From Trichococcus pasteurii (GTDB lineage: Bacteria; Bacillota; Bacilli; Lactobacillales; Aerococcaceae): a stretch of DNA of 36,226 nt. Position 1 is the stretch's first letter, and every line of letters begins with the position of its first letter. The notes below the pieces were generated by a model. The model made no database searches. It was given only the letters and a program-made list of their open reading frames with translations, and was not told the origin of the DNA. The stretch covers positions 1-36,226 of the forward strand of contig NZ_FONM01000023.1 of the NCBI RefSeq assembly GCF_900112935.1, in the 5' to 3' direction. Below, one piece after another: positions 3,774 to 32,042 of the stretch. The translations under genes were made by a program, and so were the position numbers.

Positions 3774-3860
3774 GCTTTCGTTTTTTTCAGATGATCCGAA
3801 AGCATGGTGGCGCTTTCCTTAAAGTTACTTACTTTTTTCATGGAAATCTCATATTTGGTA

Positions 3861-7666: not shown

Positions 7667-7697
7667 AATGGAAGGAAATCAGAAAGAGGTGCACGGT

Positions 7698-8324
7698 TTG
7701 GAAGGTTATCACTTCAATAAGGAAGACTTCAACGTTTTTGACATTCAGGGACTCGATGAAAGGATGGCACGCATCCGCGAACGGATCCAGCCCAAATTCC
7801 GGCATTTCGCGGAAGCGGGGGCCCGCCTCATCGTTTCGGAAGAGGTGGCTGAGGCGGTTCCCGTGCATGTCGCCAAGCACCTGCGCCGCACGAAATATGC
7901 GCCCGAGAATACTTGGTGCGCCATCGGTGGGGATGCGAGGGGCTACAAGAAATATCCGCATTTCCAGATCGGGATTGCGAAAGAGGGGGTCAGCTTCTAC
8001 CTTTGCCTGATCGATCAACCCGTCAAAGAAAAAGAGATGGCTGCTGCTTTATTGGAGCGGATTCCGGAATTGGAGCAGTTGCCGCGTGATTACGTCGTTT
8101 CGGTCGATCATACCGTCCCGGCTGTGCTTCCGATAGAAGCGGTCGATTGGGAGCCTGTCCTGATCCGGCTGCGGGATGTGAAGAAGGCTGAACTGTTGGT
8201 CGGCCGCAAGTTGGCGCCTGCCGATCCGCGCCTGGAGACTGAAGAAGGCACACTCGCGGTTATGGAGGAGACTCTCCGTGAACTGTTGCCGATCTACCGC
8301 GCTTGTATGGAACAGTATCGATAG
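7698..8324 (+). CDS. yktB: UPF0637 (DUF1054) protein YktB
   Basis: About 208 residues of a conserved Firmicutes family of unknown function. I choose TTG 7698, 7 nt after AAAGAGGTG, over the in-frame ATG 7668. The latter overlaps the promoter, and family members begin close to the (Y/F)xFxxxDFxxF motif seen here as YHFNKEDFNVF. The next segment (GLDERMARIRERIQPKF) is also typical. The protein is soluble with no signal peptide. It is monocistronic, between its own promoter and a strong terminator. Confidence 0.82.
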   Translation: MEGYHFNKEDFNVFDIQGLDERMARIRERIQPKFRHFAEAGARLIVSEEVAEAVPVHVAKHLRRTKYAPENTWCAIGGDARGYKKYPHFQIGIAKEGVSFYLCLIDQPVKEKEMAAALLERIPELEQLPRDYVVSVDHTVPAVLPIEAVDWEPVLIRLRDVKKAELLVGRKLAPADPRLETEEGTLAVMEETLRELLPIYRACMEQYR

Positions 8325-8343
8325 GTGCGGAACCCAATACAAA

Positions 8344-8387
8344 CCAAAAAGGACCGAACGGCGTGAACGCTGTTCGGTCCTTTTTGG
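8344..8387 (+). terminator. Strong, symmetrical terminator after yktB
   Basis: A 20-bp stem, CCAAAAAGGACCGAAC continuing into GGCG, pairs with the mirrored strand around a TGAA loop. The A and T runs lie in the stem arms, so it may stop transcription from both directions. Confidence 0.85.
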
Positions 8388-8497
8388 CTTGGAAAATATT
8401 TTGAGCGTCCAAAACGTTGGCTAGCTTCACGGGTTAGCCCTTCGGAAAAAAGAATAAGGAACCCCTTGTCTCTGCGAGCCAAGACATACTGTTCGAC

Positions 8498-8571
8498 TTG
8501 TCATGGTTCTTGCCATCTTTGATGGCTTAGAAACATGATACAACTGACCGGTACGGTCACGTTGATTCCTT
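8498..8571. repeat. Structured repeat unit A
   Basis: Hairpin 1 is GCCATC 8512-8517 with GATGGC 8521-8526. The outer pairing is TTGTCATG with CATGATACAA. Hairpin 2 is CAAC-TGACCG 8541-8550 with CGGTCA-C-GTTG 8554-8564. CAAC/GTTG of hairpin 2 competes with the outer pairing TTG/CAA, so the unit could switch between two folds. Confidence 0.6.
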
Positions 8572-8613
8572 TGTTTCGGAAGTCTCTCAGCAATTGCGCT
8601 CTACGATGCTCAA

Positions 8614-8686
8614 TTGCATGGGAGTCTTAGGGATTCATCCCTTAGAGTCCCAGTACAAGGTGACCGTAGGGAACGTTGCGAGGCCA
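8614..8686. repeat. Structured repeat unit C, diverged
   Basis: It aligns to units A and B with a TTGCATG start, TCTT, hairpin AGGGAT 8629-8634 / ATCCCT 8637-8642, TAGAG, AGTACAAG, TGACCG and an ACGTTG end. Hairpin 1 is intact with different bases. Hairpin 2 is no longer well paired. Confidence 0.45.
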
Positions 8687-8697
8687 GATTTCCTAAA

Positions 8698-8770
8698 TTG
8701 TCATGACTCTTGCGATTTCAATCGCTTAGAGGCATGATACACTTGACCGATTAGGTCACAGTGTTTCCTT
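8698..8770. repeat. Structured repeat unit B
   Basis: Hairpin 1 is GCGATT 8712-8717 with AATCGC 8720-8725. Hairpin 2 is CACT-TGACC 8740-8748 with GGTCA-C-AGTG 8754-8763. It is offset from unit A by exactly 200 nt and differs from it by compensatory changes in both hairpins. Confidence 0.6.
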
Positions 8771-8809
8771 AAAGAAGGGCTGAACGAACCCGTTCCGCTT
8801 TTCCTGTAC

Positions 8810-8838
8810 AAAAAAAACGGCAAATTGCTTTGCCGTTT
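8810..8838 (-). terminator. Terminator of rpsD
   Basis: On the minus strand, AACGGCAAA pairs with TTTGCCGTT around a 4-nt loop, followed by a run of T residues about 25 nt after the rpsD stop codon. Confidence 0.88.
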
Positions 8839-8862
8839 CCTTGATGCTGCTCTCCGGGGAGA

Positions 8863-9474
8863 TTAGCCTAATTTGTTGTAGTATTCTACTACGAATGACT
8901 CATCGATTTCAGCTGGCAATTCTTCGCGAACTGGCAGACGGTTCAATGAACCTTCTAATTTTTCTTCGTCGAAAGTAATGAAGTCAGGACGTCCGAACAA
9001 AGCTTCAGCAGCTGCTTTAACAACTACCAAGTTTTTAGATTTTTCGCGCAAGCCGATTACTTGGCCGACTGATACTTCGTATGAAGGGATGTCAACACGT
9101 TTGCCATCGACAGTTACGTGACCGTGGTTAACTAATTGACGTGCTTGACGACGAGTAGAAGCCAAACCTAGACGGTAAACTACGTTATCCAAACGTTGTT
9201 CCAATAAGATCATGAAGTTAACACCTTGTTTACCTTCTTTGATTTTACCAGCTTTTTTGAATAAAGTTGCGAATTGACGTTCGTTCATACCGTACATGTG
9301 ACGCAATTTTTGTTTTTCTTGCAATTGCATAGCATATTCAGATAATTTTTTACGGTTGTTAGGGCCGTGTTGACCTGGAACGTATGGACGACGCTCCAAT
9401 TCTTTACCTGTTCCCAAAAGGGAGATTCCTAGACGACGAGCTTGTTTCCAACTTGGTCCTGTATAACGTGACAT
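8863..9474 (-). CDS. rpsD: 30S ribosomal protein S4
   Basis: A 203-residue primary assembly protein of the 30S subunit that binds the 5' domain of 16S rRNA. The N-terminus [19 protein letters not shown] is typical. The S4 RNA-binding domain spans about residues 93-155 ([31 protein letters not shown]). ATG is at 9474 with GGAGGAATTT upstream. The gene is monocistronic and divergent from ezrA. The 180-nt leader upstream has the features of the autoregulatory S4 leader, so expression is probably under S4 feedback. Codon use is that of a highly expressed gene. Confidence 0.98.
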
Positions 9475-14777: not shown

Positions 14778-14794
14778 AGTGAAGTATAAATAAA

Positions 14795-15038
14795 GCATCG
14801 ATCAAGAAGAGTAGCTTACCCGGAACCACACAAGAGAGAAAAGCGTTTGGTGAAAGCTTTTTTGGGGAAGGAAAGTGAAGTAGCTTGTGAGCAAGTTGTG
14901 TGAAGGTCTGTGGACTGGGTAGCGCAGCTCGGAGTATTCTCCGTTATCAAAAAGAGAGACAGGAATCAGATTCCTGTAATTTAGGTGGTACCGCGATTCA
15001 TATCGTCCTGCATATTCATATGCAGGGCGTTTTTTTTC
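14795..15038 (+). ncRNA. T-box leader of valS, valine specifier GUC
   Basis: The T-box sequence AATTTAGGTGGTACCGCG lies at 14978-14995. It is followed by the terminator stem CGTCCTGCATA / TATGCAGGGCG and eight T residues (15004-15038). Stem I is anchored by GCTTACCC with GGGTAGC and CACACAA with TTGTGTG. On its 3' side the segment GAAG-GTC places GUC, a valine codon, in the specifier position, matching the downstream gene. Uncharged tRNA-Val is expected to stabilise the antiterminator and switch valS on. Confidence 0.92.
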
Positions 15039-23758: not shown

Positions 23759-23771
23759 TGTCTTAAATTCT

Positions 23772-24050
23772 AAATGCAATGAAGAGAAAAAGTAACTTTT
23801 GCCTATTTCCAGAGAGTTTGCGGGTGGTGCGAGCAAACAATAGAAATCAGTGAAATCACGTCTCTGAGCAAGGATGCCGAAAAGACAGCGCCTGTTGTCC
23901 TCAGTAGGCTGACTCGGTTGTGCCCGTTACAGCACTGACGTTTCAAACGGAACGTTATGAGGCGGTTTCTGTGAAGATGCCGCAAAAAAAGGTGGAACCA
24001 CGACTTCAATCGTCCTTTAACTTTCAGCAGGAAGTTAGAGGGCTTTTTTT
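23772..24050 (+). ncRNA. T-box leader of an amino acid ABC transporter operon
   Basis: The T-box-like AAAGGTGGAACCACGA lies at 23988-24003. It is followed by a terminator stem (CGTCCTTTAACTT with AAGTTAGAGGGC) and seven T residues (24011-24050). Stem I has the AGTA/GAA loop-E pair, a base helix AGAGA/TCTCT, and the apical element AGAGAG...GGTGGTGCGAG common in T-boxes. The specifier strand reads GAA-ATCACG before the base helix. Candidates are AUC (Ile), UCA (Ser) and CAC (His). The register used in the valS leader would give UCA, but I cannot decide. It controls import of an amino acid by its tRNA charging level. Confidence 0.85.
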
Positions 24051-27270: not shown

Positions 27271-27360
27271 GTTGTAAATGTGCGCACCACAGCTACAACC
27301 GCACGAATAGGAGTCATGAGACCTGCAAGGGCACTCCGTTTGGCGAGTCTAAGTAAAATA
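27271..27360 (+). ncRNA. Probable L21 leader of rplU
   Basis: A roughly 100-nt untranslated leader with GC-rich paired segments precedes rplU (for example GACTC...GAGTC-type pairing around GGAGTC near 27311 and GGCGAGTC near 27341). An L21 leader RNA is known at this position in Bacillus and relatives. The assignment is from position and structure only. Confidence 0.55.
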
Positions 27361-31825: not shown

Positions 31826-32012
31826 TAGAAATCCGATGGTGCCGGTGAGTATATTCTACTAGTTTTGAACCCGCATATAAGCAGGTGGGCTCCAATATCC
31901 AGTCTCTAACTACCAAATGATAAGGCGTGTTATCCACCGAAATAAACAGGATCCCAAGGTAGTAATAAATTGTTCGGTCAACACATTGAGAATATGTCGA
32001 ACACCTCAGAAA
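31826..32012 (-). ncRNA. ssrS: 6S RNA
   Basis: A minus-strand RNA of about 185 nt that should sequester sigma-A RNA polymerase. The 5' end TTTCTGAGGTGTTCG closely resembles the start of E. coli 6S (TTTCTCTGAGATGTTCG). It closes with the 3' segment CACC-A-TCGGA to form the terminal stem. A long double helix with a central bubble is plausible, and the 3' half contains GGGTTCAA as in 6S. It has its own promoter and terminator. The position next to rarA and upstream of a usp gene is the usual one in Bacilli and Lactobacillales. Ends are approximate. Confidence 0.85.
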
Positions 32013-32014
32013 TC

Positions 32015-32042
32015 TATATACGTATAGTAGCATACTAATCAA
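32015..32042 (-). promoter_or_regulatory. 6S RNA promoter
   Basis: On the minus strand, TTGATT (32042-32037) and TATATA (32020-32015) have 16-nt spacing. The predicted start of transcription is at about 32010. Confidence 0.7.

Follow-up and report, generated by a model that had tools for sequence, protein, structure and literature searches.

What fills the gap between the gene of a DUF1054 protein (7668–8321, + strand) and rpsD (8866–9474, − strand) of Trichococcus pasteurii? The two genes lie in the window, by which we mean the whole analysed stretch of 36,226 nt (assembly GCF_900112935.1, contig NZ_FONM01000023.1), and the preliminary description of the gap, made from its letters, had proposed a new ncRNA or a hairpin element. 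We conclude, with a probability of about 0.82, that the gap contains a single copy of a dispersed hairpin repeat that is mobile, modular and non-autonomous and of the BOX/EFAR kind. The hairpin element and its covariation were borne out, as the dispersed repeat folds as a long hairpin and carries double changes beyond those of shuffled controls. A new ncRNA belonging to this gap was not. The units belong as modules to a genome-wide repeat, the gap is empty in four of the seven relatives readable across it, and no promoter stands out.

Content of the gap and anatomy of the repeat

The whole repeat copy (8385–8803, + strand) is extra DNA relative to four relatives (G002, G003, G005 and G007), against which BLAST placed its junctions at 8384 and 8798, with 5 nt common to both. 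The gap had been described as bounded by terminators, and terminator-like sequences were indeed found on both sides: an inverted repeat behind the DUF1054 gene (8340–8391, + strand, 25-nt arms, 92% complementary), at the end of which the element starts, and a hairpin of rpsD (8811–8840, − strand), recognized by eye; a terminator pattern scan lists neither. A hairpin at the former position is present in the empty and filled relatives read, and the rpsD hairpin was seen in all seven. As expected of a MITE, no ORF of at least 80 aa, the shortest length in the ORF list, overlaps 8343–8862.

The bare core of the repeat, about 125 nt long, is a single long hairpin. Its two ends pair as a closing helix, P1, which encloses inner helices and a conserved apex. 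On the + strand of the window copy, the 5' arm of P1 lies at 8423–8441, with its pairing backed by the covariation of the core, and the 3' arm, which is also a terminator-like hairpin plus TTTTC according to pairing and pattern scan, lies at 8777–8803. The apical segment, ATTGCGCTCT..GATGCTCA (8593–8612, + strand), is mostly invariant or nearly so in an alignment of 65 copies, and core alignment and pairing place the 3' arm of the inner helices P3/P2 at 8684–8698 (+ strand). P1 comes in two versions, alpha and beta, which differ in both arms and keep the same gapless register. The pairing arms of P1 are terminal inverted repeats like those of MITEs, but full-length copies extend beyond these arms on the left by about 90 nt, up to an AT-rich end; the window copy retains only a remnant of this extension. 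At another locus, L207, a near-perfect hairpin of 119 nt (1501–1619, −76 kcal/mol) has the same outer helix and a different interior.

Three modules, M1, M2 and M3, were found inside the core in varying sets. M1 separates the left arm from the apex, M2 occupies the apical loop, and M3 is set into either the right arm or M1. All of them are on the + strand in the window copy. M1 is split into a 5' part (8456–8498) and a 3' part (8578–8591), with a small hairpin of M1 replaced by an M3 of type B (8499–8573); M1 is missing in G001 and G006 and is present in G004 without M3 inside. M2 (8616–8679) is missing in G001 and present in G004 and G006, and an M3 of type A (8699–8772) is absent from the bare core of G001 and present in G006. 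The two M3 modules are the two units reported earlier as 200 nt apart. We confirmed them at starts 8499 and 8699 (TGTCATG...) with lengths of 74–75 nt, and a repeat finder gave 50 nt at 78% identity with a spacing of 199, which fits a 1-nt indel. The third unit described at 8614 is a different module, M2, with a similar TCTT...TTAGA hairpin, and might still be a diverged copy of the same unit.

In the loci searched for it M3 gave 36 matches, fragments included, and 18 distinct copies of it were aligned. At E ≤ 1e-4, type A had 12 matches in the T. pasteurii genome (fragments among them, and spread over 10 places when counted by hand), and M3 was detected in 12 of the 13 Trichococcus genomes, all but G005, and in 13 of 37 genomes overall. 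A genome of another family (G036) had 16 M3 matches and one weak match to the core model, which makes M3 an independent unit that doubles as a module. Two loci have an M3 broken or lengthened by a further hairpin-rich insert (L011, 2079–2149; L012, 2261–2331), and at three others (L025, L026 and L039) M3 or part of it lies outside a core, apparently within other repeat-like sequence.

Occurrence in Trichococcus and beyond

Searching the T. pasteurii genome with the gap returned 97 matching pieces, and searching it with a bare copy returned 59. By hand count, at least 44 places are core-derived, the window included, and three more have M3 or part of it alone; these numbers are a lower bound, because 40 of 54 candidates were scored per search. 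Among the same scored matches to the gap or the bare copy, no longer, coding relative surfaced. Whether the units recur elsewhere had been proposed as a check, and they do: they are dispersed over the genome and not confined to the flank of rpsD. The repeat was found in all 12 other Trichococcus genomes searched, and DNA-level matches outside the genus occurred in 4 of 47 genomes (17 of 60 in all, including its own). The apex pattern was present in at least 106 named stretches, at least 75 titled Trichococcus, at least 13 Sedimentibacter sp. SX930 and at least 18 otherwise. Sedimentibacter was rejected as a distant host, as the MUZD01 records (L083, L107, L109 and others) appear to be Trichococcus, and the five that were read of the 18 titled otherwise (L081, L090, L092, L123 and L137) were chance matches in other sequence.

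The site in the window was compared with eight relatives of the same genus, seven of them readable across; in the eighth, G008, the match was confined to the left side. In the four relatives without the element, the rpsD side directly adjoins the T-tract of the terminator. Of the other three, G001 carries the bare core, G006 the core with M2 and M3, and G004 M1, M2 and a fragment of M3; T. pasteurii itself has M1, M2 and two M3. Such single sites offer a natural series from empty through bare core to core plus modules. The 37 pairs listed for other sites are a mix of true empty sites and short-versus-long variants, and module differences were also seen between orthologous copies elsewhere. Some of the absences are likely to be losses. 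Elsewhere in the window, positions 3802–3825 are probably a decayed copy of the element that is intact in G006 and G012.

The results with a covariance model of the core showed that this very common repeat of the whole genus has relatives in 83 of 295 Lactobacillales genomes at E ≤ 0.001, which belong to 18 of 74 genera, Trichococcus included. Copies per genome ranged from 1 to 140 in 22 genomes picked as matching, with 150 candidates scored in each. In some genera the core is arrayed in tandem at a period of about 122 nt, which may have arisen by tandem duplication or repeated insertion; in five arrays of other genera (L215, L205, L200, L203 and L193), the spacer of about 5–6 nt tends to stay constant inside one array and to vary from array to array. 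Of 84 distinct places in other genera, 19 were flagged as lying directly before a Shine-Dalgarno sequence and start codon, about three of them spurious on reading, and copies so placed could influence expression. Most matching genomes of one genus (f4/g24) have one match, and in the three that were read (L224, L225 and L226) a core-like hairpin lies just before what reads as dnaJ from the translations. It is possibly a domesticated copy; a single match at this place resembles a fixed, useful element and counts against a mobile repeat.

We also searched mobile DNA. A bare Trichococcus copy matched 11 Enterococcus faecium plasmids over 54 nt and the L195 copy matched them over 65 nt, making E. 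faecium a named host outside Trichococcus. Neither the window copy nor an L202-type query matched the plasmids, the window copy and L202 had no match in phages, and one exact pattern had none in viral contigs.

Paired changes and their possible causes

Both M3 units of the window fold beyond shuffled sequences on the + strand (z −4.8 and −6.3, with none of 200 shuffles as stable) and also on the − strand (z −4.2 and −4.3). The five paired substitutions between them, the observation from which the earlier proposal started, are real: in the 18 distinct copies two-sided changes occur at pairs 9–35, 16–27, 20–24, 46–67 and 47–66, and other copies add double changes at 15–28, 50–62 and 51–61. In this alignment 96.5% of cells are paired and 8 of 27 pairs have double changes, a number that none of 500 shuffles reached. 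Further pair types were not above the shuffles (12 vs 12.3). As five of the eight double-changed pairs track one split, that of type A versus type B, the independent events are fewer than the cells.

For the core, 78 sequences were taken, three were removed by a trimming rule, the rest were collapsed to 70, and 65 distinct copies were aligned. Within the genus, 90.5% of the pairings over 42 pairs are standard, and double changes occur at 20 of these pairs against a shuffled mean of 12.2, which none of 500 shuffles reached. Sliding the partners by 1–3 columns destroyed the pairing signal, and further pair types stayed at the shuffled level (31 vs 31.4). Across genera, with 96 matches in 52 loci (82 distinct), 89.8% of the cells are paired and double changes occur at 41 of 42 pairs against 31.7 in shuffles (0 of 500); this alignment was fitted to the model and leans to it.

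Selection on structure had been put forward as the simplest explanation of the paired substitutions. Such selection is one explanation. Another is that the arms of a mobile hairpin stay complementary through its own transposition or through templated repair, and the data fit both. Long imperfect palindromes are known substrates of quasi-palindrome correction, and this hairpin-templated repair rather than structural selection might have written the paired changes; it would be compatible with a mobile repeat. The block-wise differences between the alpha and beta arms of P1, which leave the register unchanged, agree with this possibility, and the near-perfect hairpin of L207 indicates that templated repair may happen at times. 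As the main source of the paired changes we nevertheless think it unlikely: many other-genus copies keep the same asymmetries, with about 6 nt of the P1 3' arm left unpaired and one A in P2, and the internal loop GATAAA/TTTCCTA also recurs in many of them. Such recurrence counts against templated repair because correction would tend toward a perfect palindrome. The repeat shows that mobile hairpins can imitate the covariation of ncRNAs.

Position behind terminators, rival readings and similar known elements

To the left of the elements, windows of 190 nt were scanned for terminators, and to the right windows of 160 nt. The detector found a same-strand intrinsic terminator on the left of 36 of 79 distinct full-length left ends, and in 28 of these its T-tract ended 15–24 nt ahead of model position 1, at about the left end of the element. 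With left ends of any kind, 41 of 129 elements had one, compared with one (+ strand) and three (− strand) of the same 129 on the right side and 28 of 600 random control windows. Over 84 left ends, T accounts for 65–71% of the letters from −27 to −23, and many of the copies read adjoin a gene end. The 43 of 79 full-length copies without a detectable terminator count against the mobile-repeat reading, and so do the shuffled-level number of further pair types in the core and the lack of a longer, coding relative among the scored matches. The orientation of neighboring genes was judged unreliable from longest ORFs, because antisense ORFs compete, and the counts (38 −/−, 30 +/+, 25 +/− and 18 −/+ among 111) were not used. 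Target duplications were absent in a free word test. In a restricted geometry, duplications of at least 4 nt occurred in 16 of 80 copies against 15.7 expected and those of at least 6 nt in 6 of 80 against 2.3, so that at best a few copies have them; the cleanest case is TGATGCC in L037 compared with the empty L100.

On the mobile-repeat reading, copies would spread as DNA, or via an RNA copy, by means of an enzyme supplied in trans. This enzyme may recognize a hairpin plus T-tract, and the right end of the element (hairpin plus TTTTC) would resemble such a target. Nested insertion, or recombination between copies, may supply the modules, and the hairpin would be maintained because mobilization requires it. 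Transcripts across a copy would be expected to fold there and may be terminated or processed. The enzyme that places hairpins behind terminators is thereby turned into a testable question. Two candidates were rejected: Y1 transposase (RAYT) genes occur in 23 of 41 genomes and reverse transcriptase genes in 21 of 41, neither tracking the repeat. Copies stand in G009, which gave no Y1 match, and no copy was found in G024, which gave seven. More speculatively, and with low odds in our estimation, the repeat might stand for a Lactobacillales-wide class of terminator-homing hairpins, with a 3' hairpin plus T-tract of their own, same-direction insertion behind the T-tract of another terminator, a possible RNA intermediate ending there (like a bacterial SINE), and nested modules traded between copies.

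A multi-copy structured regulatory RNA, either an sRNA or a cis-acting attenuator, would be selected for its RNA function and would have spread secondarily. The strong covariation of the core and M3 is in keeping with it, as are the copies directly before Shine-Dalgarno sequences and the place before dnaJ; the terminator-like hairpin plus T-tract of the right end could also compete with P1. Such a switch would need two local hairpins as the alternative to P1, and these showed no covariation beyond shuffles, although G-U replacements are frequent in the terminator-like hairpin. Many left ends carry a TATAAT-like word, yet no conserved −35 box was detected and swapped upstream DNA gave much the same promoter scores, and an own promoter was rejected. 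Non-standard pairs clearly favor neither strand. Together with the site in the window, empty in most readable relatives and variable in modules, these results make a regulatory RNA quite improbable as the general reading; it is possible above all in genera with copies in leaders. Still further from the evidence is a bidirectional terminator or insulator retained between genes to stop read-through. The position behind terminators and next to gene ends would suit it, but the empty relatives also have terminator-like hairpins on both sides of the site, and other-genus copies lie before start codons, so that we give this idea very little credence.

The preliminary description could assign no known RNA family, and a search against Rfam agreed with it: no Rfam 15 family matched the gap at gathering, and all five matches at E ≤ 10 were far below it. 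In 20 loci from other genera no family matched the element, the only hits there being two T-boxes, and no group II intron domain matched the gap or these loci. The scan of the window recovered ordinary RNAs outside the gap, namely two T-box leaders, an L21 leader and 6S RNA (14789–15013, 23770–24020, 27287–27360 and 31826–32015).

Our search of the open-licence literature found no description of the repeat family, which is no proof that none is in print. Group IIC introns insert behind terminator stem-loops. Their terminator-side insertion is alike, but the Trichococcus repeat has no Rfam group II match and its window copy no ORF of at least 80 aa. EFAR are miniature insertion sequences of 42–650 bp in 16 sequence types, which target stem-loops. 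The related description of Efa-1 of Enterococcus faecalis, in the part of the source available to us, gives a length of 163, 65(18) members, type I, and two adjacent stem-loops (PMC2267715). Compared by description, the Trichococcus repeat differs from EFAR/Efa-1 in being one long hairpin, not two; it and EFAR may form one superfamily. A review of prokaryotic MITEs names BOX, RUP and SPRITE; its accessible part does not use the term EFAR (PMC10969869).

BOX of Streptococcus pneumoniae is, according to the available sections of its description, a dispersed boxA-boxB(n)-boxC element whose inner module may be missing or multiple; boxA and boxC make the rest of the fold, and it is commoner than expected between convergent genes (PMC3049150). 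By description, the Trichococcus repeat is likewise dispersed and modular, with an inner module absent or repeated, but it has several kinds of modules at several points of the hairpin and its left end lies behind terminators. YPAL/RU-2 of Yersinia (168 bp) has internal inverted repeats, targets at or next to dyad symmetry, duplications of 3–26 bp, and empty and filled sites (PMC2229807, available part). It shares with the Trichococcus repeat the inverted repeats and the empty and filled sites, but it is enterobacterial and modules are not mentioned in that part of the paper. SPRITE of S. pneumoniae, with an 18-bp duplex followed by a uridine-rich stretch, is strongly enriched between convergent genes (PMC3049150, available sections); it differs in having this one duplex, with modules not mentioned in those sections, and is alike in being a terminator-like repeat.
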